Below, piece after piece: positions 4,144 to 63,274 of a stretch of 64,000 nt of DNA. The notes beneath the pieces are model-generated. The model searched no databases. It saw only the letters and a program-made list of their open reading frames with translations, and had not been told where the DNA came from. Each line of letters opens with the position of its first letter. Positions within the stretch are counted from its first letter, which is position 1. The stretch lies in contig CACBXG010000002.1 in the NCBI GenBank assembly GCA_902543145.1, positions 62,001 to 126,000 of the forward strand. Direction: 5' to 3'. This DNA comes from an uncultured SAR116 cluster alpha proteobacterium (GTDB lineage: Bacteria > Pseudomonadota > Alphaproteobacteria > Puniceispirillales > Marisalimonadaceae). The position numbers and the translations under genes were made by a program.

Positions 4144-4146
4144 TTG

Positions 4147-6900: not shown

Positions 6901-6905
6901 AACAT

Positions 6906-6937
6906 AATGGGCTTAAGGTTAGACCCTTAAGCTTATT
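6906..6937 (+). promoter_or_regulatory. Intercistronic hairpin after the binding-protein gene
   Basis: GCTTAAGG at 6911-6918 pairs perfectly with CCTTAAGC at 6925-6932. Two G-U pairs and three A-T pairs extend the stem to 6906-6918/6925-6937. The stem starts 5-10 nt after the stop and is followed by TTATTTTATT. It separates the binding-protein gene from the ATPase gene starting at 6952, as in the two TRAP operons and the phn operon of this window. Confidence 0.7.
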
Positions 6938-6951
6938 TTATTAAATCTAAG

Positions 6952-7707: not shown

Positions 7708-7721
7708 ATAAAAGGTCAAAA

Positions 7722-8426: not shown

Positions 8427-8431
8427 TTTTA

Positions 8432-43768: not shown

Positions 43769-45154
43769 CTAATTAAACAACACCAATCCATGAATTAAAG
43801 TCCATAAAAAAAGTGACAGCATAACAGCAGCTGAACCGTAGTCCTTAGCTCTTTTAGACAACCCATGATATTCAAACGATATTCTATCAACAGCTGCTTC
43901 AACGCTAGAATTTAATAGTTCTATAATTAAAACGAGAGAAGTTGCAAAAGTCATGAATATTATTTCAATAGCACTAACTTCTGTAATAATTATTACAGAT
44001 AAGGAAATTATTACTAAAAACATTTCTTGCCTAAAAGCGCTTTCTTCTCGGAGAGCAAAAATTAAACCTGACCATGAGTTTTTAGCCGCATGAAGTGCTC
44101 TTGTAATTCCAGTATTACCCTTATGAGGATTGTCTTCAATGTTGTATGTAGTGTCTTTGTCTCTTATGCTAACAAGATAAGACTCAAATGTTTTACTTGT
44201 TGATTCCCATGAAAATTTTTTAGCGTATTCTCTTGGCACTTTCCTTGGTATCAACAAAGCCTTCTTACATGCTTCTTTTAAGTTAGAATTTAGAATACCT
44301 GCATTCGAATTACCAATAACATCTAAAGGACCACTTACTGGGAAAGCAGCAACAGGAAGACCACAAGCCATAGCCTCTAATAATACAAGGCCAAATGTGT
44401 CCGTTTTACTCGGAAAGACAAATACATCTGCTTTGTTATAGTAATATTCTAACTCTTCTTTACTCTTAGCTCCATGAAAAATTACCTTAGGGTATTTTTT
44501 CTTTAATTCTTTAAATGCGGGTCCATCTCCTACAACCCATTTTTCATATGACAGGTCTATTTTTAAAAATTCTTCTAAATTTTTTTCTACAGCTACCCTT
44601 CCTACATTTAACAAAATTGGATTTTTATTTTTTCTTCTTCCTTTTTTTGGTTTAAAAATATCTAAATCTACACCTCTTGACCATATTTCAGGATTCCCAA
44701 TTTTGTATTTTATCAAGTCTTTTTTAACTTCTTCAGTTGGCACCATTACCAGTTCAGATCTATTGTGAAACCATCTTAAGAATGAATAAGTGATTTTAAG
44801 TGGAAGTTTTGTTCTTGCATAAACATACTCAGGGAACCTAGTGTGATAAGCTGAAGTATAAGCCAAACCATTTCTACTAGCATATCCACGTGCTGCAAGG
44901 CCTAAAGGACCTTCAGTTGAAATATGAAGACAATCAGGATTAAAATCTCTGATCATAGATGAAACTTTTGCACCTGGAAAAAGAGATAATTTTATTTCAG
45001 GATAAGTTGGGCACGGTATTGTTAAAAAACCTTCTGGAGTAATCAGCTTTACCTCATGACCTAATTTTTTTAATTGCTTGGATGTTTCATCTAGAGTTCT
45101 TACTACTCCATTGACTTGAGGATACCACGCATCTGTTACTATTAAAATTTTCAT
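43769..45154 (-). CDS. Fusion: GT4 glycosyltransferase plus DgkA-type diacylglycerol kinase
   Basis: 461 residues in one unbroken frame. Residues 1 to about 335 are a GT-B glycosyltransferase (GT4, MgtA/Agt-like): Asp-Ala-Trp-Tyr-Pro-Gln-Val-Asn-Gly-Val-Val-Arg-Thr, Asn-Val-Gly-Arg-Val-Ala-Val-Glu-Lys-Asn and Thr-Asp-Thr-Phe-Gly-Leu-Val-Leu-Leu-Glu-Ala. Residues 344-461 (43772-44125) align end to end with E. coli DgkA: at a constant offset of 343 the catalytic positions Glu28, Glu69, Asn72, Glu76, Asp80, Lys94 and Asp95 are all kept, with three membrane helices. The ATG overlaps the stop of the PlcP-type gene by 4 nt. Predicted: makes glycosyl-diacylglycerol and also phosphorylates diacylglycerol to phosphatidate. 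Confidence 0.9.
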   Translation of the reverse strand: MKILIVTDAWYPQVNGVVRTLDETSKQLKKLGHEVKLITPEGFLTIPCPTYPEIKLSLFPGAKVSSMIRDFNPDCLHISTEGPLGLAARGYASRNGLAYTSAYHTRFPEYVYARTKLPLKITYSFLRWFHNRSELVMVPTEEVKKDLIKYKIGNPEIWSRGVDLDIFKPKKGRRKNKNPILLNVGRVAVEKNLEEFLKIDLSYEKWVVGDGPAFKELKKKYPKVIFHGAKSKEELEYYYNKADVFVFPSKTDTFGLVLLEAMACGLPVAAFPVSGPLDVIGNSNAGILNSNLKEACKKALLIPRKVPREYAKKFSWESTSKTFESYLVSIRDKDTTYNIEDNPHKGNTGITRALHAAKNSWSGLIFALREESAFRQEMFLVIISLSVIIITEVSAIEIIFMTFATSLVLIIELLNSSVEAAVDRISFEYHGLSKRAKDYGSAAVMLSLFLWTLIHGLVLFN

Positions 45155-45951
45155 GCTATTTTTTTTGTTACGGTTAAATCTTTATTATTTACATTATTGT
45201 GGTCTAGTAGAGCCCAATTAATAATTTCCAGCTCTCCATTCTGATGTTCTACAAGAGCAGTAAGAGATTCAACCCAATCACCATCATTAGCATAAATTTT
45301 ATTATTAATTTTTTTCAATTCTGACTTATGAATGTGCCCACAAACAACACCATCACAGCCACGTCTAGATGCCTCTCTAACCATAAGAGTTTCAAAAGCG
45401 TTAATAAATGACACAGCCTTTTTTACTTTTAATTTTAAAAATTGTGATAGCGACCAATATGGTAAGTTAAGCATATGTCTTATTCTGTTAAACCATTTGT
45501 TTAACCAGAGGAGAAAGGTATATGCAGAGTCTCCTATGTAAGCTAACCATCTAGCATGTTGCATTACTTCATCAAAAAGGTCTCCGTGTATTACCCACAA
45601 TTTTTCATTCCTAGCAGTTTTATGAAAAGCTTCATTTTTTATCTTAATATCACCAAATGTAATACCTAGAAAAGTTCTTGCCCCTTCATCGTGATTACCT
45701 GGAATAAATGTAATTTTTGTACCTTTTCTCGCTTTTCTTAGTATTTTTTGAATTACATCATTATGAGATTGAGGCCAATACCACTTTTTAGTTAAGCTCC
45801 ACCCATCAATAATATCCCCAACTAAATATAAATAATTACTTTCATTATATCTTAAAAATTCGAGAAGATGTTCAGCTTGCGAGCCTGTTGACCCTAAATG
45901 AATATCGGAGATCCAAATAGCTCTATAGTTTTTGTTTTTGTGTTTAACCAT
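45151..45951 (-). CDS. plcP: PlcP-type metallophosphoesterase (phospholipase C for lipid remodelling)
   Basis: 266 residues, calcineurin-like phosphoesterase. Metal ligands: Asp16 and His18 (Ser-Asp-Ile-His-Leu-Gly), Asp46 (Gly-Asp-Ile-Ile-Asp-Gly), Asn86-His87-Asp88, His122-Gly-Asp124, and His206-Ile-His208. Trp-Tyr-Trp-Pro-Gln-Ser-His-Asn-Asp and Gly-Asp-Trp-Val-Glu-Ser are typical of the branch that databases often label LpxH-like but which includes PlcP of rhizobia and marine bacteria. PlcP cleaves membrane phospholipids to diacylglycerol under phosphorus limitation. Immediate coupling to a diacylglycerol-type glycosyltransferase and the nearby phn genes support PlcP over LpxH. A true LpxH role in lipid A is the alternative. 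Confidence 0.85.
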   Translation of the reverse strand: MVKHKNKNYRAIWISDIHLGSTGSQAEHLLEFLRYNESNYLYLVGDIIDGWSLTKKWYWPQSHNDVIQKILRKARKGTKITFIPGNHDEGARTFLGITFGDIKIKNEAFHKTARNEKLWVIHGDLFDEVMQHARWLAYIGDSAYTFLLWLNKWFNRIRHMLNLPYWSLSQFLKLKVKKAVSFINAFETLMVREASRRGCDGVVCGHIHKSELKKINNKIYANDGDWVESLTALVEHQNGELEIINWALLDHNNVNNKDLTVTKKIA

Positions 45952-50516: not shown

Positions 50517-51320
50517 ATGCTTAAAATAATTAATATTTCTAAATATTTTGATCAAGTTAAAGCTGTTAATAATGTAACAATAAATGTTGAAAATTCCTCA
50601 ATGATTGGAATTATTGGAAGATCAGGTGCTGGTAAATCTACATTATTAAGAACAATAAATAGACTCACTGACGCTACCTCTGGCGAAATTCTTTTCCAAG
50701 ATCAAAATATATTAGATTTGAAGAAAAAGGATAAACTCGCATGGCAAAAAAATTGTGCCATGATATTTCAACAGTTTAATCTTGTTCCAAGATTGGATGT
50801 TCTTACAAATGTTATGTTAGGCAAATTGAATGAGATGTCTACTGTGCGTGCTAGTCTAAAACTTTTTACATCTGAAGAAAGACATGTCGCATTAAACTTA
50901 CTAGACAAATTTGGCATGATACAGACTGCTCTACAAAGAGCTGAAACACTCTCCGGTGGTCAGCAACAAAGAGTTGCAATATGTAGAGCTATGATGCAAG
51001 ACCCTAAACTAATCCTTGCAGATGAACCTATAGCTTCATTAGATCCTTTAAATGCTAGACTTGTTATGGAATCTCTTAGAAAAATTCATGATGAACAAAA
51101 TATCACAGTGATTTGTAACCTACATACTCTAGATACTGCAAAGCAGTATTGTGATCGTATTATTGGTATGCAGAACGGAGAAATAGTGTTTGATGATTTA
51201 CCATCAAAACTTACAAATCAAAAAGCTAGAGAAATTTATGGTGCTGAAGCTGACGAAGCTTTTGAAGGCACTATGACATCAGTTTCATTAGAGAGCGCAG
51301 ATATTAAGAAGACTGCATGA
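50517..51320 (+). CDS. phnC: Phosphonate ABC transporter ATPase PhnC
   Basis: 267 residues. Walker A Gly-Arg-Ser-Gly-Ala-Gly-Lys-Ser-Thr at 34-42, Gln-Gln-Phe-Asn-Leu-Val in the Q-loop, signature Leu-Ser-Gly-Gly-Gln-Gln-Gln, Walker B Leu-Ile-Leu-Ala-Asp-Glu-Pro-Ile-Ala-Ser-Leu-Asp, and switch His in Cys-Asn-Leu-His-Thr. PhnC-specific features include Arg-Leu-Asp-Val-Leu-Thr-Asn-Val-Met-Leu-Gly. It powers phosphonate import with PhnD and the two PhnE proteins. TATGGAG precedes the ATG. Confidence 0.96.
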   Translation: MLKIINISKYFDQVKAVNNVTINVENSSMIGIIGRSGAGKSTLLRTINRLTDATSGEILFQDQNILDLKKKDKLAWQKNCAMIFQQFNLVPRLDVLTNVMLGKLNEMSTVRASLKLFTSEERHVALNLLDKFGMIQTALQRAETLSGGQQQRVAICRAMMQDPKLILADEPIASLDPLNARLVMESLRKIHDEQNITVICNLHTLDTAKQYCDRIIGMQNGEIVFDDLPSKLTNQKAREIYGAEADEAFEGTMTSVSLESADIKKTA

Positions 51321-51367
51321 ACTTATGAAAATTAGAAGACCAAACTTAAATCAATGGAGAAATATAA

Positions 51368-52327
51368 ATGTTAAAAAAATTATATAGTTTTTTAGCTGTA
51401 GTGACCGCTTTTTTAATGGTTTCTGCAGCTAATGCAGATAAAAAATACGATGGACCAAAAATGGACCTCAGTAAATTTCAGCCTGAATTCAGAATTGGAT
51501 TTCTTGGAGATGAAGCATCCCAGGATATCATTGCACGAAATGGATGCCTAAAAGATTATGTTGAAAAAGCATATAATGTCCCAGCTAAAATGTTTACCTT
51601 TAAGGACTATGCTGGAACCATGGAATCAATGCTTGGTGGTAACCTTGATTACACTTGGTTTGGTTCTTCTGGTTATGCTGGAGTTTATCTACAAGACCCT
51701 AATGCGGTTGTACCTATATTAACTAGAATGCAACCTACTGGTGACACTGGTTATTATTCTGTAATGGTAGCGAGAAAAGATTCTGGTATAAAATCCCTAG
51801 ATGACCTTAAAGGAAAAAAATTAGGTTTTGCTGATCCTAATTCTACTTCTGGATATCTAATTCCATCTATTGAATTACCAGAATTATATAACGTTAATAT
51901 TGATACTTACTTCTCAAAGACACAATTTTCTGGTGGTCATGAAAACAACGTATTAGCTGTGCTAAATGGTGACGTTGATGCAGGTGTTACATGGGTATCT
52001 GGTGTTGGTAAATGGGAAGAAGGATACTCATCTGGTAATTTAAGAAAAATGGTTGATAAAGGTATCTTAAATATGGATGACCTTGTTCAGGTTTGGTCAT
52101 CAAAATTAATTCCTAATGGCCCAATTGTAATGCCAAAGAAATTACCACAAGAAGCTAGAGACGTTATGGTTGGAATGAAGCAATGGATACACAAAAATGA
52201 TCCAAAATGCAGTGAAGATGTTGCAAATGGTATTGTAAAAGCTTGGGTTCCAGTTGATCATAGTTTCTACGAAGTGATCGTAAAAGCTAGAAAAGCAAAA
52301 TTAGAAGCCAAGAAGAAAAAAGGCTAA
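51368..52327 (+). CDS. phnD: Phosphonate-binding periplasmic protein PhnD
   Basis: 319 residues with a signal peptide (cleavage near Ala-Asn-Ala at 22-24). Mature protein has Phe-Arg-Ile-Gly-Phe-Leu-Gly-Asp-Glu, Leu-Asp-Tyr-Thr-Trp-Phe-Gly-Ser-Ser-Gly-Tyr, and the PhnD loop Phe-Ala-Asp-Pro-Asn-Ser-Thr-Ser-Gly-Tyr-Leu-Ile-Pro, whose Ser/Thr hold the phosphonate. TGGAGAA lies 7 nt before the ATG. A strong hairpin follows the stop, before phnE. A ligand such as methylphosphonate or 2-aminoethylphosphonate cannot be chosen from sequence alone. Confidence 0.95.
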   Translation: MLKKLYSFLAVVTAFLMVSAANADKKYDGPKMDLSKFQPEFRIGFLGDEASQDIIARNGCLKDYVEKAYNVPAKMFTFKDYAGTMESMLGGNLDYTWFGSSGYAGVYLQDPNAVVPILTRMQPTGDTGYYSVMVARKDSGIKSLDDLKGKKLGFADPNSTSGYLIPSIELPELYNVNIDTYFSKTQFSGGHENNVLAVLNGDVDAGVTWVSGVGKWEEGYSSGNLRKMVDKGILNMDDLVQVWSSKLIPNGPIVMPKKLPQEARDVMVGMKQWIHKNDPKCSEDVANGIVKAWVPVDHSFYEVIVKARKAKLEAKKKKG

Positions 52328-52336
52328 TTAACTTTC

Positions 52337-52369
52337 ATGCAAAAGACAGTGTTTAGCTGTCTTTTGCAT
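52337..52369 (+). promoter_or_regulatory. Intercistronic hairpin after phnD
   Basis: ATGCAAAAGACAG (52337-52349) pairs perfectly with CTGTCTTTTGCAT (52357-52369), a 13-bp stem with a 7-nt loop starting 9 nt after the phnD stop. It resembles the hairpins after the other three binding-protein genes in the window and should stabilise phnD mRNA and/or reduce transcription into phnE. Confidence 0.8.
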
Positions 52370-52413
52370 ACTTTATTAACTCAATCAATAATAATATTAT
52401 AGTTGGAAATATA

Positions 52414-53268
52414 ATGTATTCAGACAATATTTTAGGTTTTGAAACAATTGAGAAAAACCTAAAAGCCATGGCTTTTAAAAGACTAATTTATTCTTTCATA
52501 AGCATTCTAGCTATTTTATTTCTTCTTTCCAGTGGACTTACAATAGCAGAAGAAAATAATGCTGGAAGCTTTCAAAGGGGATTGAGTAAATTTTTTGACT
52601 ACCCTGTTGATCTCTTCAAAGAAGCATTTGAGTCTGGTTGGAGATGGTATGCATATGTATTCAAATATCTTCCAGATTTAATAACAACAATAAACATGGC
52701 TTTTTTTTCAACACTATTCGGGGCAATTTTTGCTCTTCTCTTGAGCCTGTTTGCAAGTAAAAATTTAATTAAAAACCAATATATAGTTACTTTATCTAGA
52801 AGAACCATGGATATTCTGAGATCATTCCCTGAGTTGGTTATTGCTATGATATTTTTGTATCTGATGGGAAAATCAGAATTACCTGCAGTTATTGCAATAG
52901 TAATTCATACTGCTGGAGCTCTAGGAAAATTATTCTCTGAAGCTATTGAAAATGCTGATAACAAACCAATTGAAGGATTACAATCTTGTGGAGCAAGTTG
53001 GTGGCAACGAGTTAGATTTGCAGTTATTCCTCAAGTAGTACCTTTATTTATCTCATACACCCTTCTGAGGTTAGAAATTAATGTAAGAGCGTCAACCATC
53101 CTTGGTTTTGTAGGTGCTGGAGGTATTGGAGAAGCATTGTCTGCTGTAATTCAGTTTAGATATGGAGACGAAATTATAGCTATTATGTTTTTATTAGTTA
53201 TAACTATAATTTCCTTAGATTATTTCTCCAGATTTCTTAGGGGTAGATTAATTGGAGACAATAAGTAA
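52414..53268 (+). CDS. phnE: Phosphonate ABC transporter permease PhnE (first)
   Basis: 284 residues with about six membrane helices. The coupling loop Glu-Ala-Ile-Glu-Asn-Ala-Asp-x3-Ile-Glu-Gly-Leu-Gln-Ser-Cys-Gly-Ala-Ser-Trp-Trp-Gln-Arg and Val-Ile-Pro-Gln are PhnE marks, as is Gly-Phe-Val-Gly-Ala-Gly-Gly-Ile-Gly near the C-terminus. It forms the channel as a heterodimer with the second PhnE. Its stop TAA shares a base with the next ATG. Confidence 0.94.
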   Translation: MYSDNILGFETIEKNLKAMAFKRLIYSFISILAILFLLSSGLTIAEENNAGSFQRGLSKFFDYPVDLFKEAFESGWRWYAYVFKYLPDLITTINMAFFSTLFGAIFALLLSLFASKNLIKNQYIVTLSRRTMDILRSFPELVIAMIFLYLMGKSELPAVIAIVIHTAGALGKLFSEAIENADNKPIEGLQSCGASWWQRVRFAVIPQVVPLFISYTLLRLEINVRASTILGFVGAGGIGEALSAVIQFRYGDEIIAIMFLLVITIISLDYFSRFLRGRLIGDNK

Positions 53269-54626
53269 TGGAGCAAGTATTAAATCAAAATGTTATTGAT
53301 GCAGTTGATCTAAAACATAAAAAACATATTAGAATTCTTATTATAACTGGATTTGTGTTTCTTGTTTATTTAATTGGGTCAATATTACACTTTGATCTAC
53401 CTAACTTAGCTAAAAAGTGGAATAAAAATCGAGCGTCTATGTTTATGTTAGATATTTACGCTCACAAAGACCATATAAAAATGAATTGGAAAGATCCTCA
53501 GAAAATTGACGTAAGATTTGAGGGTGGTCACAGGCATGTTTATAAAGATGATCCCACTTGGCTTATTAGAAATAAAAATAATCAATCTACAATTGTTAAC
53601 TTTGATAATGGTGGTCAGTTTGTTTTCTTTCCTAATAGAGTGGAAATGAGAAATTTTCCTAATATCAATGAACCATTCATTTTTAAGCTTAATAAAAATG
53701 GTAAACCTTATGTTGATGGGTATGTTGGAAAGGAAAGTATGTTGCCAAGTTGGATGCGTGCAACAGAAAATAAAGTTGAAGTGAGACCTTCTTTATATGA
53801 AAGGCTTCAGGTATATGGATCAAAAGTCGAAGTTCATAGATACGAGTTAGGATGGAAATATTTTTGGTTTGATTTCGATAGCCCTCTTGTTGGAAAGGGA
53901 TTTCTTGACGCTATATCACTTATGTTTAATGAAGACAGAGTAGATCCAAAAATTTCAAATTTTAATCTTGTTGTAAATGAATTTTTAGAAAATGAAATAT
54001 GGCACCACAACACCGTTTTGTTTGCTATGGTTGAAACATTATTAATGGCCATTCTTGGAACATTAATTGCCTCAATGGTTGGTCTTCCACTAGCTTTTCT
54101 TGCTGCTTACAATGTTACTCCACTTTCCTCAATAAGGTTTTTTCTGAGAAGACTCTTCGACATGCTTCGCGGAATAGATATGTTAATTTGGAGTTTAATA
54201 TTCCTTAGAGCTTTCGGTCCTGGACTTTTTACTGGAATTTTTGCAATCGCATTTACAGACACAGGCACTCTTGGTAAATTAATGTCTGAAGCTATAGAAA
54301 ATACTGATAAAAAAGATAAAGAAGGTATCCAGTCAACTGGTGCAAACAAAGTTCTTCAACATAGATTTGGTATCATTCCACAAATACTACCAATTTTCAT
54401 TTCACAAAGTTTATATTACCTAGAGTCTAACACAAGAGCTGCCGTAATTATTGGGGCAATGGGTGCTGGAGGTATAGGCTTACATTTCCTTGGGGCATTA
54501 ATGACTGGAAATGATTTTGAAAACGTTGCTTACATGGCAATTTTAGTTTTAGTTGCTGTAATGTGCATTGATACTATGTCAGCCAAACTAAGAAGATTAT
54601 TAATTGGTATAGAGGATAAGAAATAA
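53268..54626 (+). CDS. phnE: Phosphonate ABC transporter permease PhnE (second), with large N-terminal periplasmic domain
   Basis: 452 residues, about 170 longer than a normal PhnE. One helix (about 21-42), then a soluble, aromatic-rich region (about 43-205) predicted to lie in the periplasm, then the permease core from about 205, with coupling loop Glu-Ala-Ile-Glu-Asn-Thr-Asp-x3-Lys-Glu-Gly-Ile-Gln-Ser-Thr-Gly-Ala and Ile-Gly-Ala-Met-Gly-Ala-Gly-Gly-Ile-Gly. I believe similar long second PhnE proteins exist in some alphaproteobacteria. The extra domain may dock PhnD or an accessory protein. It overlaps phnE by 1 nt. Confidence 0.9.
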   Translation: MEQVLNQNVIDAVDLKHKKHIRILIITGFVFLVYLIGSILHFDLPNLAKKWNKNRASMFMLDIYAHKDHIKMNWKDPQKIDVRFEGGHRHVYKDDPTWLIRNKNNQSTIVNFDNGGQFVFFPNRVEMRNFPNINEPFIFKLNKNGKPYVDGYVGKESMLPSWMRATENKVEVRPSLYERLQVYGSKVEVHRYELGWKYFWFDFDSPLVGKGFLDAISLMFNEDRVDPKISNFNLVVNEFLENEIWHHNTVLFAMVETLLMAILGTLIASMVGLPLAFLAAYNVTPLSSIRFFLRRLFDMLRGIDMLIWSLIFLRAFGPGLFTGIFAIAFTDTGTLGKLMSEAIENTDKKDKEGIQSTGANKVLQHRFGIIPQILPIFISQSLYYLESNTRAAVIIGAMGAGGIGLHFLGALMTGNDFENVAYMAILVLVAVMCIDTMSAKLRRLLIGIEDKK

Positions 54627-54636
54627 AGGAGTTACT

Positions 54637-55101
54637 ATGAATAGATATATTTTAATAATAGTTTTTTTAATTTACCCGTTACTTGTTCAAGCTCAAAGCA
54701 AAGACACAAAAAATATAAGCAATGAGGTGTCTTCTCAGGAAGCTGGAACATTAGTTAATACAGAAGAAATTTTTCAAAAACTTATAGATAAATGTGATGA
54801 TGTTAACCTTCTTATGTTAAGAGCCAGAATAAGATTAGAGTTACCTAGAATAGATAAATCTGACGCTGATACAGTCGAAAAAATGCTGTTAGAAGGTTTT
54901 GAAATGTGTGCACAAAAAAAACCTGAGGAAGCTAAAGTAAAATTAACAGAAGCATACGAAATCGCAAAAAAAGCTGCCTCGGAAAAATTTGGCCAAACTG
55001 GTACAGGTGGATTAGAAACTGTTAAAAAAGATATCGAACCTCTAAAAGATACAAACTCTTCTAATGGTATAAATGATAAGCCATGGTGGAAATTCTGGTA
55101 A
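54637..55101 (+). CDS. Unknown small secreted helical protein of the phn operon
   Basis: 154 residues, 10 nt after phnE2, with AAAGGAG before its ATG. A clear signal peptide ends Val-Gln-Ala (near 20), not a lipobox. The mature part is mostly helical with two Cys (Lys-Cys-Asp-Asp and Met-Cys-Ala-Gln) that could form a disulfide, then a disordered Thr/Ser/Asn linker and the tail Lys-Pro-Trp-Trp-Lys-Phe-Trp. I do not recognise a family. Position suggests a periplasmic accessory of phosphonate uptake, perhaps partner of the long PhnE loop or the membrane surface through its aromatic tail. Confidence 0.75.
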   Translation: MNRYILIIVFLIYPLLVQAQSKDTKNISNEVSSQEAGTLVNTEEIFQKLIDKCDDVNLLMLRARIRLELPRIDKSDADTVEKMLLEGFEMCAQKKPEEAKVKLTEAYEIAKKAASEKFGQTGTGGLETVKKDIEPLKDTNSSNGINDKPWWKFW

Positions 55102-55182
55102 TTGAAATTTAATTTTATATTAAAATATTTGTTAAAAAAATGAAAAATTATTTCGTAATGATCTTCTAAAAAAGGGGATAGT

Positions 55183-56121
55183 ATGAAATTAAAACCATTT
55201 GACAAATCTGGAAAATTTTACAAAGGCAATTTGCATGGACATAGCGATTACTCTGACGGACTGCTTAAACCAAAAACTGTGATTGAGTTTTACAAATCAT
55301 ATAGCTATGATTTTACATGTCTTTCTGATCATTTATGGCATGACAAGAGATTTGCTGCAGAAAGTGTAAATGATGTTTCTGATTTTAATTTTAAAGATTT
55401 TATTACAATTCCAAGTGCTGAAATTCATGTAAAAGGAAAAAAGTACGAAAGAGCTGGCTTGTGGCATCTTGTTGCTAACGGTTTGCCTTTAGATTTCAAA
55501 ATTGCATCTGATAATGAAACAGTAGATGAACTACTTAACAGAATCATAGAGACTGGAGCATTTGTAACAATAGCTCATCCAGAGTGGTATTCATTATCTT
55601 CTGATGAGGCCATTAAAGTAAGTAATGCTCACGCAGTTGAAATCTATAATCACGCAGCAACAATTAGCTCAAATAGAGGTAGTGGAATAGCTACAGCTGA
55701 CTTCCTACTAAATAATAATAAAAAAATTTTACTAACTGCATCTGACGATTCGCATTTTCATAAAGAAGATGCTTTAGGAGGTTGGGTATTCGTAAAATGC
55801 AAAAACCTGTCTATACAAAATATTTTATATTCTCTTAAAAATGGCAATTATTACTCTTCTACAGGGATAGCAATACATAATATAGAACTTGATGATAATG
55901 AACTCTTAATACAATGTAGTCCAGCTTCACACATAATTATTTCAGGCTCCTCTAATACCTGCCTTTCCAAAAATGGTTACAACATTACAAGTGCCAAATT
56001 TGATTTAAATAAGCTTGATACAAGTTTTTTTAGAGTAACAGTATTAAACGAGTATGGTAAATATGCTTGGTCTAATCCTTACTGGTTAGATGAAATTTTT
56101 AAAGATTGGAGTAACGATTGA
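55183..56121 (+). CDS. PHP-domain phosphoesterase in the phosphonate cluster (CehA/McbA-like)
   Basis: 312 residues. PHP metal motifs: His18-Gly-His20 in Asn-Leu-His-Gly-His-Ser-Asp-Tyr-Ser-Asp-Gly, Leu-Ser-Asp-His, Ser-Ala-Glu-Ile, Ala-His-Pro-Glu-Trp and Ser-Asp-Asp-Ser-His. No signal peptide, so cytoplasmic. PHP enzymes hydrolyse phosphoesters, and one has been reported to open cyclic phosphate intermediates of C-P lyase chemistry. With no PhnP gene in the window, this protein is a candidate for hydrolysis of the phosphoribosyl cyclic phosphate. GGGGATA lies upstream of the ATG. Confidence 0.82.
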   Translation: MKLKPFDKSGKFYKGNLHGHSDYSDGLLKPKTVIEFYKSYSYDFTCLSDHLWHDKRFAAESVNDVSDFNFKDFITIPSAEIHVKGKKYERAGLWHLVANGLPLDFKIASDNETVDELLNRIIETGAFVTIAHPEWYSLSSDEAIKVSNAHAVEIYNHAATISSNRGSGIATADFLLNNNKKILLTASDDSHFHKEDALGGWVFVKCKNLSIQNILYSLKNGNYYSSTGIAIHNIELDDNELLIQCSPASHIIISGSSNTCLSKNGYNITSAKFDLNKLDTSFFRVTVLNEYGKYAWSNPYWLDEIFKDWSND

Positions 56122-56178
56122 AGATACTAGAGTTAACATATCTCAATGTTTTTATTTTTTTAGCACCTAGTTATTAAC

Positions 56179-56793
56179 ATGAAAAAACTTGATAAAAACA
56201 GACCTTTAATTCACTCAGATTGTCAAGTTGTAGACAGTGATTTTGGTTCATTTGTTGAAATAGGTGAATATTCTATTATTTCAAATTCTAATTTCGGTGA
56301 TTATTCTTATTGTACAAGATTTTGTGATATAGCCAATACAGACATAAAAAAATTTTCTAATATTGCAAGCTCTGTTAGAATAGGTCCAACGGACCATCCA
56401 ATGGAAAAAGCAAGTCTTCATCATTTTTTATATAGATCAACTGACTATTGGGAAGACAAAGAACATGACAAAGATTTTTTTAAAAACCGATATTCCAGAA
56501 AAACTATAATTGGCAATGACACATGGATAGGACATGCTGCTATTGTTAAACCTGACATTACAGTTGGGGATGGTGCTATAATTGGAGCTGGTTCTGTTGT
56601 TACCAAAGATGTGGAAAGTTATACTATTGTAGCAGGAAATCCCGCTAAAATTATTAGAAGAAGGTTTTCAGAAAAAATTGCAATTCAATTGTCTGAAATT
56701 CAATGGTGGAATTGGTCTCATGAGAAAATAGGATCTTCCTTAGACGACTTTAGAACTTTAAGTGTTGAAGATTTTATATCAAAATATAAATAG
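56179..56793 (+). CDS. Hexapeptide-repeat transferase of C-P lyase clusters (PhnT-like)
   Basis: 204 residues forming a left-handed beta-helix: repeated Ile-Gly-x-x-x hexapeptides, with Gly-Pro-Thr-Asp-His-Pro, Ile-Gly-Asn-Asp-Thr-Trp-Ile-Gly-His-Ala-Ala and Val-Ala-Gly-Asn-Pro-Ala-Lys-Ile-Ile-Arg. This class of putative acetyltransferase occurs in many alphaproteobacterial C-P lyase operons; it may acetylate aminoalkylphosphonates as PhnO does, but this is inferred. It converges with phnM, 1 nt between the stop codons. Confidence 0.85.
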   Translation: MKKLDKNRPLIHSDCQVVDSDFGSFVEIGEYSIISNSNFGDYSYCTRFCDIANTDIKKFSNIASSVRIGPTDHPMEKASLHHFLYRSTDYWEDKEHDKDFFKNRYSRKTIIGNDTWIGHAAIVKPDITVGDGAIIGAGSVVTKDVESYTIVAGNPAKIIRRRFSEKIAIQLSEIQWWNWSHEKIGSSLDDFRTLSVEDFISKYK

Positions 56794-56794
56794 A

Positions 56795-58009
56795 TTAGGA
56801 TACTGCATTTGATGATTTAATAAATCTGTCAACAACGCTTTTACAAACACTTGCAATCTTTCCATTACATATTGTTGCTTCTATCTCTCTTGTTTTTGGG
56901 TTAATAATTACTAAATCTGCGTAATTTTCTACTTTGATAGCTCCTCTTTTGTCAATATTTAGTGCCTTTGCGGGATTTTCTGATATTAATGCCCATGCAT
57001 TTTCAATAGAACAAATCTTATGATCTAACAAATACCAAATTGACTGGAGTAGTGATGGATAATAATAATCTGATACTAGAATACTACAGTATCCTAGTTT
57101 TAATAATTCTAATGTAGATATATTTCCATTATGTGAACCACCTCTGACTAAATTAGGCGCACCCATTATTACATTTTCATTATTGAAGTATGCTTCTTTA
57201 GCAGCTAAAATACTTGTTGGAAACTCACAAATATTAGCACCAAAACTTCTAAACCATTTTCTATCCTTTTTGCTTTCATCATCATGCGAACCAAATTTAA
57301 TATTATTAGATTTCATAAAATTGCTTAATGTTTTTAAACTATCACTTACTTCATTTTCTTTTGTTAATCGATAATTCACAATATTTGCAAGTTCACTTTT
57401 TTCCATAGACATTTTATTAGCCCATGTTGCAAATGCTGTTGGTTTGTTTTGAATTTTTTCTATGGCATCAGGTATATGATTGTTGAATACCACATAATTA
57501 AGTTTGTATTCTGTAATTAAATCAATAAGTTCTTGAACTTTTTCTACAAGATGCGTTTCGTACCTTACCTGAACATTTATATTAGTTATCATAGAAGGTC
57601 TGTATTTATTGAGATTTTCTAAAAATATTTTAGCGTATTCAGGACTTCTTATTCTACCTTCCCAGCTATAACTACATGCTAGGTAAGCCGTAGTAATGCC
57701 ATTAATGGAAAGTTCTTTGTCAACAATTTTAAGAGTATCATTTATATCAAAACTTACGCCTGGCCTTGGAAATAATTGTCTTTCAAATCCATCTCCATGT
57801 AAGTCTATTATTCCAGGTAATACCCAAAAACCCGTCAAATCTATAACTGGATAATTTTTTTTAGGGTATTGATTAGTTTTATTAACTTCAATTGAAGTTA
57901 AAAATTTATCTTCAATAGTTATGGTTCCCGATTGCATTTTATTATGATGCAAAAATTTACTGCCCTGTAAAATATATCCTGAAAATTGATTTGATTGTAT
58001 TTGGTTCAT
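56795..58009 (-). CDS. phnM: Alpha-D-ribose 1-methylphosphonate 5-triphosphate diphosphatase PhnM
   Basis: 404 residues, amidohydrolase superfamily. Asp-Leu-His71-Gly-Asp73-Gly-Phe-Glu provides the first metal ligands; Phe-Gly-Ser-His-Asp-Asp-Glu, Gly-Ala-Pro-Asn-Leu-Val-Arg-Gly-Gly-Ser-His-Asn-Gly-Asn and Leu-Val-Ser-Asp-Tyr-Tyr-Tyr-Pro are PhnM signatures. It removes pyrophosphate from the ribosyl triphosphate phosphonate before PhnJ acts. It is transcribed with phnF away from phnG, 51 nt after phnF. About 10 N-terminal residues exceed the usual start. Confidence 0.95.
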   Translation of the reverse strand: MNQIQSNQFSGYILQGSKFLHHNKMQSGTITIEDKFLTSIEVNKTNQYPKKNYPVIDLTGFWVLPGIIDLHGDGFERQLFPRPGVSFDINDTLKIVDKELSINGITTAYLACSYSWEGRIRSPEYAKIFLENLNKYRPSMITNINVQVRYETHLVEKVQELIDLITEYKLNYVVFNNHIPDAIEKIQNKPTAFATWANKMSMEKSELANIVNYRLTKENEVSDSLKTLSNFMKSNNIKFGSHDDESKKDRKWFRSFGANICEFPTSILAAKEAYFNNENVIMGAPNLVRGGSHNGNISTLELLKLGYCSILVSDYYYPSLLQSIWYLLDHKICSIENAWALISENPAKALNIDKRGAIKVENYADLVIINPKTREIEATICNGKIASVCKSVVDRFIKSSNAVS

Positions 58010-58060
58010 ATATTTTAGTTATCTTAATTTTATTAATTTTATATTACAAATATCAAAAGC

Positions 58061-58768
58061 TTAATCTTCTAATGTTAATTGAATTCTTTCGCCAACAAAC
58101 CATGTTTGACTGAACTCTATTGGAATACAATTTAAATCTTGATTCACATATGTTGTTTTAAGAAGTGGGCTATTAATTTTACAATCAAGTAAATTTGCTT
58201 GAATACTATCAGCTAGCTCTGCGATTATATTAGTGTTTGACCTAACAAAATCATTTACACCCAACAACTTTAGTGTGTTTGTGACAGATAATTCTTTTTG
58301 AAATATTTCTAGAAAACTGGGAAACCTTTTATTTGGAATTATTCTTTTAGTTATAATAGATGGAATATTATTAATTTTACCAGTTGTTTCTATTAAAAGA
58401 ATCTCATCTTTTGAATTTATTTTTAAATTATCAGCTTCTATCTTGGATGCTTTTCTATACTCTGATCTAATAATTGTTGTTTTAGGAATATTGTTTTCAT
58501 GAGTAATATTCTCTGAAAATCTTACTCTTTTTCCAAGTTTATATTTTAACTTAGAAGCTTGAACAATTACACCAGAACCTCTTTTAGAAAACAAAATTCC
58601 TTCATTTTTTAATATTTGCAAAGCTCTTCTAACCGTGTGTCTATTTACTCCAAATCTTTTTGAAAGATGATTTTCAGAAGGTAGTTTATCACCTGAATTG
58701 TATATGTTATCCGCCACATCTTTTTTTAATGCTTCATAAATTTGATAATAAATGAGTTTAGAATTCAT
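58061..58768 (-). CDS. phnF: GntR/HutC-type regulator PhnF
   Basis: 235 residues. N-terminal GntR winged helix: Gly-Asp-Lys-Leu-Pro-Ser-Glu-Asn-His-Leu-Ser-Lys-Arg-Phe-Gly-Val-Asn-Arg-His-Thr-Val-Arg-Arg-Ala-Leu; C-terminal UTRA ligand domain with Leu-Ile-Glu-Thr-Thr-Gly and Ile-Glu-Phe-Ser-Gln-Thr-Trp-Phe. It is probably the local repressor of the phn operon, responding to a phosphate or phosphonate ligand. The 86-bp space to phnG holds TTGTATA repeats that may be its operator. Confidence 0.92.
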   Translation of the reverse strand: MNSKLIYYQIYEALKKDVADNIYNSGDKLPSENHLSKRFGVNRHTVRRALQILKNEGILFSKRGSGVIVQASKLKYKLGKRVRFSENITHENNIPKTTIIRSEYRKASKIEADNLKINSKDEILLIETTGKINNIPSIITKRIIPNKRFPSFLEIFQKELSVTNTLKLLGVNDFVRSNTNIIAELADSIQANLLDCKINSPLLKTTYVNQDLNCIPIEFSQTWFVGERIQLTLED

Positions 58769-58794
58769 GTAATAAAAACTTAATAAAAATATAA

Positions 58795-58838
58795 TTGTAT
58801 AATTAATGTTTTATAATTATAAGTTGTATAGTTGTATA
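58795..58838. promoter_or_regulatory. Candidate PhnF operator region between phnF and phnG
   Basis: TTGTATA occurs at 58795, 58824 and 58832; the last two lie in a perfect tandem repeat of GTTGTATA (58823-58838). A perfect 12-bp palindrome TTATAATTATAA occupies 58811-58822 directly before it. GntR/HutC proteins bind short AT-rich palindromes in such divergent gaps. The repeats are directly visible; assignment to PhnF rests on position. Confidence 0.5.
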
Positions 58839-58854
58839 GTAAAGAAGTAATTAA

Positions 58855-59295
58855 ATGATTGAAAAAAGAAAATCTTGGATGAGTTTGTTAGCAACATCTA
58901 GCCAAAGTGATTTGTTAAATCTCTGGGAACAAAAAAAAATAAAAGTCAATTATGTATGGTTAAGAACACCTGAAATTGGAAGCATAATGGCTCAAGGAAG
59001 AATGGGTGTAACTGGAGATAAATTTAATATTGGTGAAGTTACTGTAACTAGATGTTCCTTAAAATTGAATTGTGGAACAATAGGTCATAGTTATGTTCAA
59101 GGAAGAAGTAAGAAAAAAGCTGAAATAAGCGCATTATGTGATGCTCTTATGCAAACTAAAATGTCTAAAGAAATAAATAAAAATATTATTATTCCTTTAG
59201 AAAAAATTAAAAAAGATAATAAAGACAAAATTCTCTCAAAAGCTGAAGCTACAAAAGTTGATTTTTTTACTCTTGTAAGAGGAGAAAGCGATTAA
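58855..59295 (+). CDS. phnG: C-P lyase core subunit PhnG
   Basis: 146 residues, the normal PhnG size. Arg-Thr-Pro-Glu-Ile-Gly, Gly-Glu-Val-Thr-Val-Thr-Arg-Cys and Gly-His-Ser-Tyr-Val-Gln-Gly-Arg are family marks. PhnG is part of the PhnG2H2I2J2 core and, with PhnH and PhnI, attaches phosphonate to ATP in place of adenine. First gene of the plus-strand phnGHIJKLN operon; its stop overlaps phnH by 1 nt. Confidence 0.95.
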   Translation: MIEKRKSWMSLLATSSQSDLLNLWEQKKIKVNYVWLRTPEIGSIMAQGRMGVTGDKFNIGEVTVTRCSLKLNCGTIGHSYVQGRSKKKAEISALCDALMQTKMSKEINKNIIIPLEKIKKDNKDKILSKAEATKVDFFTLVRGESD

Positions 59296-59864
59296 TGGAA
59301 AATTATCCTTTTTCTGAAAATTCTATAAATAGTTCTATTGCTTTTAGATCATTAGTAAATGCAACATCATATCCAGGTAGAACTTTTCAGATAAATAAAC
59401 TTAACAAACCAAGTGTATTGTCAAATGCAGCAGCGACAATATTAATTACGTTATGTGATAATGAGAGTAATGTTTACCTCTCAAAAGAATATAATACAGA
59501 TGAAGTAAGGAATTGGTTAATTTTTAACACTGGTGCCATTATTAGTAACAAAAAGAATGCTGATTTTGTAATTGGTACATGGAAATCTTTATTGCCATTA
59601 AATGATTTCAAAATAGGAGTTCCTGAGTATCCAGAAAGATCTGCAACTTTAATAATTGAAGAAACAAAATATAAAAAAGTAAAATGCAACATTGATGGTC
59701 CAGGCATAAAAAATAAATTAAATATTGATTTACCTAATCCTGAATTATTTATCGAAAATAATAATCTTTATCCTTTAGGTTTAGATTTCTATTTCACAAA
59801 TGACCTAGAAATTTTATCTATTCCTCGTTCAACAAAAATTAATATCATAAAATCGGAGCTTTAG
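59295..59864 (+). CDS. phnH: C-P lyase core subunit PhnH
   Basis: 189 residues. Ala-Phe-Arg-Ser-Leu-Val-Asn-Ala-Thr-Ser-Tyr-Pro-Gly-Arg near the N-terminus and Gly-Thr-Trp-Lys-Ser-Leu, Gly-Pro-Gly-Ile, Gly-Leu-Asp-Phe-Tyr-Phe later fit PhnH. It is a PLP-transferase-like fold subunit of the core complex without PLP. phnI begins directly after its stop with no gap. Confidence 0.94.
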   Translation: MENYPFSENSINSSIAFRSLVNATSYPGRTFQINKLNKPSVLSNAAATILITLCDNESNVYLSKEYNTDEVRNWLIFNTGAIISNKKNADFVIGTWKSLLPLNDFKIGVPEYPERSATLIIEETKYKKVKCNIDGPGIKNKLNIDLPNPELFIENNNLYPLGLDFYFTNDLEILSIPRSTKINIIKSEL

Positions 59865-60941
59865 ATGTATGTAGCTGTTAAAGGTGGGGAAGTAGCAATT
59901 GATAACGCTCATTCTTGGATGTCAGAAATAAGAAGAGGTGATACATCCATTCCAAATATTTCCCTTGATCAAATATCAGAACAACTCACACTTGGCGTTG
60001 ATAGAGTAATGTCTGAAGGTTCTCTATATGATAAAGAACTTGCTGCATTAGCTATAAAACAGTCTAGAGGTGATTTGATAGAAGCTATATTTTTGTTAAG
60101 AGCTTACAGAACAACTCTTACAAGATTTAGTTACAGCAAACCAGTTAATACAGCAAATATGACATGCCTTAGAAGGATTTCAGCAACTTTTAAAGATATA
60201 CCAGGTGGACAAAAATTAGGTCCTACTTTTGATTACACGCATAGGCTTTTGGACTTTAAATTACTAGCTGAAAATGAAGCACCTATTAGTCCCAAAAAAA
60301 AATATAATGACAACAAAATGCCTCACGTTTTAAGTTTTTTAAATCAAGAAGATTTAATGCAGAACGAAAAAGATAACAATCTTGATCCTATCGATATAAC
60401 TCGAGAACCTATTAGCTATCCAACATCTCGTTCGGCAAGGTTACAAGCATTATCAAGAGGAGATGAGGGTTTTTTACTTGGTCTCGCATATTCTACTCAA
60501 AGAGGATATGCAAGAAATCATGCATTTGTAGGGGAACTAAGAATTGGCATAGTTGACATTGAGCTTTATATTCCAGAATTAGGTTTTGAAATTAATGTTG
60601 CTGAGATCATTTTAACTGAATGTGAAACGGTAAATCAATTTCAAGGATCCAAAATTGAACCTCCACAATTTACAAGAGGTTATGGTTTAGTATTCGGACA
60701 GACTGAAAGAAAAGCTTTAGCAATGGCCTTGATCGATAGAGCTTTAAGATGGAAAGAATTAGGTGAAGATTATTGTGGCGCACCAGCACAAGACGAAGAA
60801 TTTGTTATTTCACATTGCGACAACATTCAAGCGACTGGTTTTTTAGAGCACATAAAACTACCACATTATGTTGATTTTCAATCTGAACTAGAGCTCATTA
60901 GAAAAATTAGAGCTGACGCCAAAGTTAATATGAAAAGGTAA
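59865..60941 (+). CDS. phnI: C-P lyase core subunit PhnI (nucleosidase)
   Basis: 358 residues, full length. Val-Lys-Gly-Gly at the start, Leu-Arg-Ala-Tyr-Arg-Thr-Thr-Leu, Arg-Arg-Ile-Ser-Ala-Thr-Phe-Lys-Asp-Ile-Pro-Gly-Gly-Gln, Gln-Arg-Gly-Tyr-Ala-Arg-Asn-His and Arg-Gly-Tyr-Gly-Leu-Val-Phe-Gly-Gln are PhnI hallmarks. It displaces adenine from ATP with phosphonate in the presence of PhnG, H and L. phnJ starts 4 nt later. Confidence 0.96.
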   Translation: MYVAVKGGEVAIDNAHSWMSEIRRGDTSIPNISLDQISEQLTLGVDRVMSEGSLYDKELAALAIKQSRGDLIEAIFLLRAYRTTLTRFSYSKPVNTANMTCLRRISATFKDIPGGQKLGPTFDYTHRLLDFKLLAENEAPISPKKKYNDNKMPHVLSFLNQEDLMQNEKDNNLDPIDITREPISYPTSRSARLQALSRGDEGFLLGLAYSTQRGYARNHAFVGELRIGIVDIELYIPELGFEINVAEIILTECETVNQFQGSKIEPPQFTRGYGLVFGQTERKALAMALIDRALRWKELGEDYCGAPAQDEEFVISHCDNIQATGFLEHIKLPHYVDFQSELELIRKIRADAKVNMKR

Positions 60942-60945
60942 TAAA

Positions 60946-61824
60946 ATGAATGAAATGAGTAAAAATGAAAATTTAGATATTCAAATTTATAATTTTGCTT
61001 ATTTAGATGAAAATACAAAAAGAATGATAAGACGAGCTCTTCTGAAAGCATTATGTATACCTGGCTATCAAGTACCTTTTTCCTCAAGAGAAATGCCAAT
61101 GCCATATGGTTGGGGTACTGGTGGAATTCAGGTAACATCTGCTTGTTTAATACCCAAAGATATTTTAAAGGTAATAGATCAAGGCGCCGACGATACTACA
61201 AATGCAGTATCAATAAGAAAATTTTTTCAAAAAACTGCAAATGTAGCTGTAACTGAAAAAACTTCAGATGCATCTCTTATACAAACTAGACACAGAATTC
61301 CTGAAACAAAATTAAAAGAAAAACAAATATTAGTATATCAAGTACCAATTCCAGAACCTCTTAGATTCTTAGAACCAAGAGAGACAGAAACTAGAAAAAT
61401 GCATGCTCTTTCTGAATATGGATTAATGTATGTAAAACTTTATGAAGATATTGCAAAACATGGTCATATTGAGACAGCATATGCATATCCAATAAAAACA
61501 AATGGAAATTATGTTACTGACCCTTCTCCTATTCCAAAATTTGATAATCCCAAAATGAATAATAGTCCAGCTATTCAACTTTTTGGCGCTGGAAGAGAAC
61601 AACGAATTTATGCTATTCCACCTTATACAAATGTTAAAAGTCTTGATTTTGAAGACTATCCTTTTGAAGCTATGAAAGCTAATTTCAAATGTTCAATATG
61701 TGGATCCAGTGATAGTTATTTAGATGAAATTATTGTTTCAGATGATGGTAAACGATCATATATATGTTCAGACACAGACTATTGCAAAGAACAAACCAAA
61801 TTAAATTCAAAAAAAGAAGATTAA
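60946..61824 (+). CDS. phnJ: C-P lyase radical SAM enzyme PhnJ
   Basis: 292 residues. Cys249, Cys252, Cys274 and Cys280 have the exact PhnJ spacing C-x2-C-x21-C-x5-C that holds the 4Fe-4S cluster, and the glycyl/thiyl-radical segment Tyr-Gly-Trp-Gly-Thr-Gly-Gly-Ile-Gln is at 54-62. It reduces SAM and cleaves the C-P bond, giving the alkane (methane from methylphosphonate) and the ribosyl cyclic phosphate. All catalytic marks are intact, so the pathway should be active. phnK follows 2 nt after the stop. Confidence 0.97.
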   Translation: MNEMSKNENLDIQIYNFAYLDENTKRMIRRALLKALCIPGYQVPFSSREMPMPYGWGTGGIQVTSACLIPKDILKVIDQGADDTTNAVSIRKFFQKTANVAVTEKTSDASLIQTRHRIPETKLKEKQILVYQVPIPEPLRFLEPRETETRKMHALSEYGLMYVKLYEDIAKHGHIETAYAYPIKTNGNYVTDPSPIPKFDNPKMNNSPAIQLFGAGREQRIYAIPPYTNVKSLDFEDYPFEAMKANFKCSICGSSDSYLDEIIVSDDGKRSYICSDTDYCKEQTKLNSKKED

Positions 61825-61826
61825 TT

Positions 61827-62603
61827 ATGAAGCAAAATTTCTTATTTCAAGCCTCTAATATTTCTAAATACTATGGCCAAAATATAGGTTGCAAAAATGT
61901 ATCTTTAGATATTAATCCTGGAGAGGTCCTTGGAATTGTTGGCGAATCAGGTTCTGGGAAGTCTACATTATTAAACTGTATTTATGGAAATTTAGAAGTT
62001 GATGAAGGAGATATTTTCTTAAACGACAAATCAAAAACAATCCTCAATTTTACAAAAATTTCGGAACCAAAACTTCGTTTAATTCAAAGATCTGATCTAG
62101 CATTTGTGCATCAAAATCCTCGTGATGGTCTCAGAATGAATATAAGTGCAGGAGGAAATATTGGTGAAAGATTAATGGCAATTGGTCATAGAAATTATGG
62201 TGAAATTAGAGAAATCGCTGCAAATTGGCTAGAAAAAGTTGAAATTGATGTTAACAGAATTGATGATAAGCCAAGTACTTTTTCTGGAGGAATGCAACAA
62301 AGACTTCAAATTGCAAGAAATCTTGTAACTAGACCAAGATTGATTTTTATGGATGAACCTACTGGAGGTTTGGATGTATCTGTACAAGCTAAAATCTTGG
62401 ATTTATTAAGAAACCTTGTAAGAGAACTTGGCATTGCTGCAGTAATAGTTACACACGATCTTGCAGTAGTTAGACTTTTAGCTGATCGTATAATTGTAAT
62501 GCAAAATGGAAATGTAATAGAAGCTGGTTTGTGTGATCAGGTTTTAGATGATCCACAGCATAAATATTCGCAATTATTAGTTAGTTCAGTATTACAGGTG
62601 TAA
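61827..62603 (+). CDS. phnK: C-P lyase ABC-type ATPase PhnK
   Basis: 258 residues from ATG 61827, 2 nt after phnJ; the frame is open earlier inside phnJ but that would not be used. Walker A Gly-Glu-Ser-Gly-Ser-Gly-Lys-Ser at 39-46, Phe-Val-His-Gln-Asn-Pro, signature Phe-Ser-Gly-Gly-Met-Gln-Gln, Walker B Leu-Ile-Phe-Met-Asp-Glu-Pro-Thr-Gly-Gly-Leu-Asp, switch His in Val-Thr-His-Asp. No transmembrane partner; PhnK docks on PhnJ in the core complex. Confidence 0.95.
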   Translation: MKQNFLFQASNISKYYGQNIGCKNVSLDINPGEVLGIVGESGSGKSTLLNCIYGNLEVDEGDIFLNDKSKTILNFTKISEPKLRLIQRSDLAFVHQNPRDGLRMNISAGGNIGERLMAIGHRNYGEIREIAANWLEKVEIDVNRIDDKPSTFSGGMQQRLQIARNLVTRPRLIFMDEPTGGLDVSVQAKILDLLRNLVRELGIAAVIVTHDLAVVRLLADRIIVMQNGNVIEAGLCDQVLDDPQHKYSQLLVSSVLQV

Positions 62604-62604
62604 A

Positions 62605-63270
62605 ATGATACAAATTAAAAATTTAAACAAATCATTCCAACTTTATAATCAAAACGATACAAACATAAATGTATTTAAAAATATAAACTTCAGAGTTAAT
62701 AAAGGTGAGGTTGTTGCACTTACTGGCAACTCTGGCACAGGTAAATCTACTTTATTAAAATTAATCTATGGAAGTTATGTGATAAGTAAAGGTGATGTTC
62801 TTATTTCAGATATTAATATTAGAAAATCATCACCTAGAGATATTTTAAAACTAAGAAAGAATAAATTGGGGTATGTTAGTCAATTTTTGAGAGTTGTACC
62901 TAGAGTGCCAACAATAGATGTTGTAATAGAACCCTTGCTTGAGATTGGATGTGAAAAAAAAATTGCATTAAAAAAAGCTCAAGAAATATTAGAAAGACTT
63001 AATATTCCAAAAAATTTGTGGAACTTATCTCCCTTAACTTTCTCAGGAGGTGAACAACAAAGAGTAAATATTGCTAGGGGTTTTATTCATAATTATCCGT
63101 ATTTACTTTTAGATGAACCAACCGCAAGTCTGGACCAAAATAATAAAAATGTTGTATTAGATTTAATAGAAAAAGCTAAGCTAAATGGTTCAGCTATAAT
63201 AGGAATATTTCATGATGAAACAGCTAGAAACAAAGTTGCTACAAGAGAAGTCAATTTAGAAAATTTATGA
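62605..63270 (+). CDS. phnL: C-P lyase ABC-type ATPase PhnL
   Basis: 221 residues. Walker A Gly-Asn-Ser-Gly-Thr-Gly-Lys-Ser-Thr at 41-49, Tyr-Val-Ser-Gln-Phe-Leu-Arg-Val-Val-Pro-Arg-Val in the Q-loop (PhnL-specific), signature Phe-Ser-Gly-Gly-Glu-Gln-Gln, Walker B Leu-Leu-Leu-Asp-Glu-Pro-Thr-Ala-Ser-Leu-Asp and switch His in Phe-His-Asp-Glu. It supports the first step of the C-P lyase pathway. 1 nt separates it from phnK. Confidence 0.95.
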   Translation: MIQIKNLNKSFQLYNQNDTNINVFKNINFRVNKGEVVALTGNSGTGKSTLLKLIYGSYVISKGDVLISDINIRKSSPRDILKLRKNKLGYVSQFLRVVPRVPTIDVVIEPLLEIGCEKKIALKKAQEILERLNIPKNLWNLSPLTFSGGEQQRVNIARGFIHNYPYLLLDEPTASLDQNNKNVVLDLIEKAKLNGSAIIGIFHDETARNKVATREVNLENL

Positions 63271-63274
63271 ATTA

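Follow-up and report, generated by a model that had tools for sequence, protein, structure and literature searches.

On the minus strand of the window, the 64,000-nucleotide stretch of DNA analysed here, a single frame of 461 codons runs open from ATG to stop (43769-45154). A sequence-only reading had described this unbroken frame as a GT4 glycosyltransferase (GT) followed by a full DgkA-type diacylglycerol (DAG) kinase. Domain searches bore this out, matching three Pfam profiles on the one chain: Glyco_transf_4 (residues 14-165, E 1.8e-24), Glycos_transf_1 (residues 168-288, E 1.2e-23) and DAGK_prokar (residues 359-459, E 2.8e-28). The last match spans profile positions 2-102 of 102 and scored 98.2 bits against a cut-off of 22.3. 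That reading had also placed residue 344 at base 44125, which is correct, and had reported a 4-nt overlap with a phosphoesterase gene. The overlap is real (45151-45154), with the metallophosphoesterase gene lying upstream (Table 1).

Table 1. Genes and domains of the window, in window coordinates
Feature	Position	Strand	Basis
Agt-DgkA fusion gene, 461 codons	43772-45154	-	stop codon 43769-43771; ORF, Pfam, PDB phmmer
GT4 (Agt/GTcp-like) domain, residues 1 to about 335	44150-45154	-	Pfam; residues invariant in 51/51 fusions
Junction, residues 336-350 (TYNIEDNPHKGNTGI), overlapping the DgkA start	44105-44149	-	resembles the N-terminal tail of separate operon-encoded DgkAs
DgkA domain, residues 344-461	43772-44125	-	Pfam, PDB phmmer, hydropathy, functional residues
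PlcP-like metallophosphoesterase gene, 266 codons	45151-45951	-	ORF, Metallophos profile
Phosphonate ABC transporter genes (PhnC-, PhnD-, PhnE-, PhnE-like)	50517-54626	+	ORFs; Phosphonate-bd and ABC_tran profiles
C-P lyase cluster: PhnM-like amidohydrolase, GntR-type regulator, PhnG/H/I/J/K/L/N-like	56795-63811		ORFs, profiles

Might DgkA also be translated separately, from an internal start? We rejected this: the window gene has no start codon at its junction, and among its relatives the start codons near the junction share no position common to the whole family. TTG351 recurs in most rows of family f12, and TTG or GTG is found at 327-328 in some SAR116 rows.

We aligned 51 distinct fusions drawn from 77 loci, excluding one (from genome G117) owing to a stop codon. 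In the GT domain, H104, R160, R186, K191, D252, T253, F254, G255, E260 and W316 (window numbering) are invariant in all 51. Residues of the GT4 enzyme GTcp that abolish activity when changed include G16, G82, G85, H104, R163, R190 and K195, and further D256, F258, G259, E264 and W320 (PMC8231724). When these were placed on the fusions by motif and offset, the equivalents of all except G16 were kept in 51/51 distinct fusions, and that of G16 in each of the 25 fusions aligned. Three traits of Agt/GTcp enzymes are present at this locus: the two-domain GT4 profile, a gene adjoining a PlcP-like gene, and the residues essential in GTcp. The predicted activity of the domain is glycosylation of DAG with a UDP-sugar.

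Residues 346-454 align without a gap to E. coli DgkA (3ze4; PDB phmmer, E 1.9e-22), which argues for three membrane helices in the DgkA domain. Its hydrophobic segments peak at 378-396 (2.48), 404-422 (1.51) and 442-460 (2.15); a peak in the GT domain (255-273) also reaches 1.83. Seven DgkA residues had been named beforehand as retained at a constant offset of 343, and all seven are found there. Across the 51 fusions, E28, E34, E69, N72, E76, D80, K94 and D95 (DgkA numbering) are invariant. Of the 25 functional DgkA residues named in the part of PMC6408475 consulted, the window protein keeps 24, and 22 are identical throughout the 51 fusions; T8 varies, R81 is kept in 50 of 51, and the position of Gly83 is Ser in every one. 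The domain resembles E. coli DgkA (PF01219) in its completeness, its functional residues and its gapless alignment. It differs at Gly83 and in its setting: the E. coli protein is a 121-residue stand-alone enzyme, whereas the window's DgkA follows a glycosyltransferase. Degenerate kinase residues, which the sequence-only reading had named as the finding that would tell against it, were seen in none of the 51. The exception lies outside that alignment: the G117 fusion (L166 3809-5239) has an in-frame TAA within its DgkA domain, for which decay and assembly error are indistinguishable explanations.

Computed by NG86 for each domain on sequence pairs, dN/dS was low in both domains for most pairs. 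The window and L005 gave 0.040/0.569 for the GT and 0.095/0.795 for DgkA; L087 and L095 gave 0.107/1.514 and 0.109/1.918. For the closest pair, the window and L002, the DgkA value was 0.012/0.027, a ratio near 0.4 that rests on few changes; several distant pairs were saturated.

The gene upstream of the fusion (45151-45951) matches Metallophos above its Pfam cut-off, and the NCBIfam LpxH models fall far under theirs (38.9 of 134 and 28 of 190.35 bits), as expected of a calcineurin-like phosphoesterase distinct from LpxH. We take it to be PlcP because it precedes an Agt-type GT, and the name comes from that neighbour. When 108 upstream regions were scanned for a Pho box, the region upstream of the window's plcP fell outside the best 60; several relatives had better matches than the window (uncorrected p).

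How widely is the fusion distributed? From a scan of named records we kept the best 80 of 259 loci. The 30 best relatives (L002-L031; 25 titled SAR116 and 5 alphaproteobacterium alone) carry the same fusion in a single frame, each behind a PlcP-like gene. The other 50 of these best 80 (L032-L081) have a GT without a fused DgkA; at L032-L035 the GT stands without DgkA, and at L074 a separate DgkA gene adjoins plcP on the opposite strand. In the window's order (SAR116-like), the GT was found in 58 of 136 genomes at 1e-40. The match is long (fused) in 46, including G117 with its stop codon, and ends before DgkA in 12; among the 46, G117 alone is broken and the other 45 have one open frame. DgkA of any kind occurs in 47 of the 136 genomes, namely the 46 and G050. 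The 12 genomes with a shorter GT match gave no DgkA match. A second order, represented by one family (f12, 32 genomes), has the GT in 15 genomes, fused in 13 and split in 2, and DgkA in 16; in the two split genomes GT and DgkA are separate genes 4 nt apart. The fused form is thus present in three families of the window's order and in a second order. Absences of GT or DgkA are soft because many of the genomes are incomplete.

A sample of the class had DgkA in 55 of 385 genomes. It yielded 27 new loci (L112-L138), of which three (L123, L131, L137) are linked to a GT; the remaining 24 alphaproteobacterial DgkA loci, all outside both orders, had no GT or PlcP inside the short flanks fetched. At least 211 of 398 genomes in a phylum sample have DgkA. 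Four long DgkA frames fetched from the phylum-sample matches listed contained no further GT fusion: those of G737 and G726 had no Agt-type GT within the 5.5 kb read, and those of G836 and G834 proved to be separate genes in overlapping frames. A 278-aa DgkA frame in G884 lay outside these four. We also rejected spread on mobile elements, since none of the 36 plasmid and 5 phage records with a match covers 80% of the protein.

In the window, the phosphonate transporter starts about 4.5 kb upstream of plcP and the C-P lyase cluster comes next; both are neighbours of the enzyme's gene, not components of it. The names PhnC and PhnE follow order and reading rather than a profile; within the cluster, PhnI, PhnJ, the GntR/UTRA regulator and the amidohydrolase have profile matches, the other names coming from order and sequence. 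With both systems near the cassette, the stretch from 50517 to 63811 looks like a phosphorus-scavenging region. In a homology scan of the 30 fused loci L002-L031, 15 had phn, pst, phoU, phoR or ppx genes in their flanks (L004-L007, L009-L013, L021, L023, L024, L026, L027 and L029). The count carries no chance level; the flanks are of unequal length, and many of the loci are close kin rather than independent. It excludes the incomplete PhnC with which L002 ends and low-scoring ABC matches in L014-L020. At L029, pstC, pstA, a pstB-like gene and phoU lie directly upstream of plcP, with ppx downstream. In family f12, a histidine kinase and a phosphate-selective porin precede plcP at L153 and L154, and an alkaline phosphatase adjoins the cassette at L157.

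The order of genes behind the porin varies. L153 reads porin, plcP, fused GT-DgkA, Fae (formaldehyde-activating enzyme); L154 and L156 read porin, plcP, GT, dgkA, Fae; L155 reads porin, dgkA, Fae, with pst genes beyond; and L082 of genome G050 reads porin, dgkA, GAPDH. Together, these f12 and G050 arrangements give a natural dissection of the cassette. The lone dgkA genes behind the porin lie at 5070-5486 (minus strand) in L155 and 1483-2064 (minus strand) in L082. L082 falls within the fused DgkA clade described below; L155 (the same gene as L139) resembles L082 and lies outside the rows of the tree. Neither genome (G543 for L155 and G050 for L082) gave a PlcP match at 1e-20 or a GT match at 1e-40; they are 66% and 84% complete, and G050, with 5% contamination, may hold a foreign contig.

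Several other features were observed around these loci. The Fae gene adjoins the cassette or the lone dgkA at L153 (5632-6210), L154 (5502-6062), L155, L156 and L158, and at the short locus L158 it is the sole match besides the cassette. At L164 and L037, a GT without DgkA adjoins ppx and a ppk-sized gene; the genome of L164 (G105) has its PlcP match on a different contig. At L010-L013 and L023 (about 4054-8600), short extra TauE and SixA matches flank the cassette and full copies lie further on, as if the cassette had moved and duplicated its borders. Among eight genomes searched, three of them single-contig, none matched a DAGK_cat kinase or BtaA; the BtaA control was found in 1 of 14 genomes.

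A three-gene operon, plcP-GT-dgkA, came to light through two of the long phylum-sample frames; its dgkA has a frame of its own. In the distant order concerned, which belongs to another class, the GT occurs in 33 of 120 genomes at 1e-60. We fetched 30 of these GT loci: plcP adjoins in 29 (on the opposite strand in L173), and in 8, from families f219, f274, f270 and f257, dgkA lies directly downstream on the same strand. Counting from the start nearest the GT end, the spacing of GT and dgkA varies between a 68-nt overlap and a 54-nt gap. These separate DgkAs carry the junction motif near their start (YHIDQNPHKGN in L169 versus YNIEDNPHKGN in the window), which suggests that the end of the GT was joined to the start of DgkA. 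All 25 fusions aligned here share the junction residues N342, P343, K345, N347 and G349.

Of the DgkAs compared, those closest to the fused domain come from separate dgkA genes, third in the plcP-agt-dgkA operons of that other class. A DgkA tree of 61 rows and 118 columns, few columns for so many rows, groups the fused domains with L082, the f12 genes and the f219 operon genes in a single clade (98/95), separate from the other DgkAs; the f274, f270 and f257 operon genes lie outside it. The f219 genes L169 and L170 fall inside the fused part (88/92), a placement that suggests exchange, and exchange of DgkA with f219 must be allowed for. In a GT tree of 43 rows, the fused GTs form a clade (97/92) that also holds unfused L037, L164 and L032 and split L131. 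L163, of the same order, is its unfused sister (99/93). A clade restricted to fused rows was rejected (p-AU 1e-63), and SAR116 excluding f12 as a clade was marginally rejected (p-AU 0.044). The result is a fused clade with secondary split and loss. The split loci of the second order were considered as a pre-fusion ancestor; they are nested within the fused clade, and secondary splitting is the better reading. By the trees and topology tests, the fusion probably arose once and was once transferred between orders; at least one split and DgkA losses would complete the history. The transfer is likely, not certain, because the nesting of f12 in SAR116 rests on support of 98/95 and a p-AU of 0.044.

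We propose that the gene product is an inner-membrane enzyme whose two domains compete for DAG at a branch point of lipid remodelling under phosphate stress. PlcP, from the same operon, would strip phospholipids of their head groups, so that DAG stays behind in the membrane. The Agt-type GT4 domain at the N-terminus would move sugar from UDP-sugar to this DAG and form a glycolipid free of phosphorus; a cytoplasmic GT in that position is consistent with the topology. The C-terminal DgkA domain, an expected trimer, would anchor the chain and use ATP to convert unglycosylated DAG to phosphatidate, which would re-enter phospholipid synthesis. DAG, harmful on accumulation, would be held low both while glycolipid is made and while the process is reversed. 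PlcP is described as releasing DAG from phospholipid, and Agt enzymes as adding sugar to it (PMC8231724, PMC4796936). In E. coli, DgkA serves salvage; its loss raises DAG 20-fold and kills under osmotic challenge (PMC8027125). In light of this published biochemistry, a kinase beside PlcP and Agt would best be read as a return valve. A kinase that restores phosphate during starvation needs an extra assumption, that it acts as a safety valve or is used on recovery. To judge from the two DgkA-only loci, the kinase may be of use in phosphate stress without the PlcP-Agt pathway; these loci weaken a strict valve reading and count against a mere anchor.

That the protein holds two active DAG enzymes of phosphate-stress lipid remodelling, whether or not the join matters, we consider probable. 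Since this judgement spans both cases, it overlaps with the foremost alternative: both domains are active and the join is neutral, closely spaced neighbour genes having merged so that one chain does the work of two. This alternative is compatible with our proposal, and we give it nearly even chances. Elsewhere plcP, agt and dgkA are separate genes at close or overlapping spacing, the junction matches the tail of separate DgkAs and so adds little extra linker, and the fused clade has split and DgkA-less members nested within it. Against neutrality, the fused form occurs in three families of the window's order and in a second order, with five junction residues invariant. In a true DAG switch, one DgkA trimer would be ringed on the cytoplasmic face by three GT domains, and DAG received from PlcP would be apportioned to glycolipid and phosphatidate according to ATP, UDP-sugar or DAG levels; we hold this more specific arrangement to be rather doubtful. 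The branch-point enzyme envisaged in the sequence-only reading therefore survives in part. The fusion is genuine, the residues of both domains are intact, the gene is coupled to a PlcP-like gene, and phosphate-stress flanks recur in relatives. As a strict device it fares less well: the fusion is not obligatory, there being split forms (two genomes), GT without DgkA, and DgkA without plcP or GT (two incomplete genomes).

Could the DgkA domain phosphorylate another lipid, such as undecaprenol, monoacylglycerol or the glycolipid itself? The substrate cannot be read from the sequence, and such a DgkA occurs in two incomplete genomes in which no plcP or GT was found; DAG is favoured by the gapless match to E. 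coli DgkA and by the link, seen in separate lineages, with two DAG-linked genes, and we think another substrate improbable. Stand-alone Agt enzymes are peripheral, and a DgkA module would tether the GT to the membrane. The domain might then serve mainly as an anchor and oligomerisation device with vestigial kinase activity, as the G117 stop within it would permit. We give this little credence, given catalytic residues invariant in 51/51 fusions, mostly low dN/dS, related DgkAs that are separate operon genes, and the occurrence of L082 (of this clade) and L155 (similar to it) alone without a GT. An assembly or frameshift artefact, raised by the sequence-only reading as what could undo the fusion, is almost certainly not the explanation: nothing points to one in the window, G117 is the only broken frame among 46, and independent genomes carry the fusion in one open frame (every one of the 30 best relatives in named records, and 45 of the order's 46 long-match genomes).

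How does the proposed two-enzyme fusion relate to known systems? It is like the PlcP-Agt pathway of marine bacteria (PMC8231724, PMC4796936) in its GT4 catalytic residues, in a GT directly downstream of a PlcP-like gene and in its phosphate-stress neighbourhood. Unlike the fusion, GTcp is a 38-kDa protein without a DgkA domain (PMC8231724), and the word kinase is absent from the main texts of both papers, as it is from those of PMC9239053 and PMC8528852. In Pseudomonas putida BIRD-1, phosphate depletion enriches both PlcP and DagK; this is a link of expression only, and the text consulted holds no fusion (PMC5082522). The HIMB59 island fGIp-C places a glycosyltransferase and a diacylglycerol kinase together with pst and phoBR, and its figure legend lists LpxH and RfaG too; there, they are separate genes, called without direct P-related function, and the main text lacks the word fusion (PMC10734472). 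Among other sources consulted in part, a SAR116 genome paper mentions phosphonates, with neither lipid nor diacylglycerol in its main text (PMC8547437), PMC6852614 reports that SAR116 has C-P lyase and that plcP marks phosphate stress, and dgkA appears solely in a gene table in PMC13086504. The PlcP-Agt pathway is thus already known; in the literature searched, with most subscription journals outside it and sources seen in part, we found no description of the fused architecture, of dgkA as the third gene, or of any plcP-linked diacylglycerol kinase.

Replacing phospholipid with glycolipid saves phosphorus in many ocean bacteria, and the pathway, in the published accounts as consulted, consists of PlcP and Agt (PMC8231724, PMC4796936). 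The Agt-fused kinase and the third operon gene dgkA point to a return route for DAG that those accounts do not include, and such a route offers a concrete, testable control point of lipid remodelling. The diacylglycerol kinase of the marine phosphate island (PMC10734472) may likewise belong to lipid remodelling. If the DAG switch is true, one chain would set the ratio of phospholipid to glycolipid in abundant ocean bacteria.
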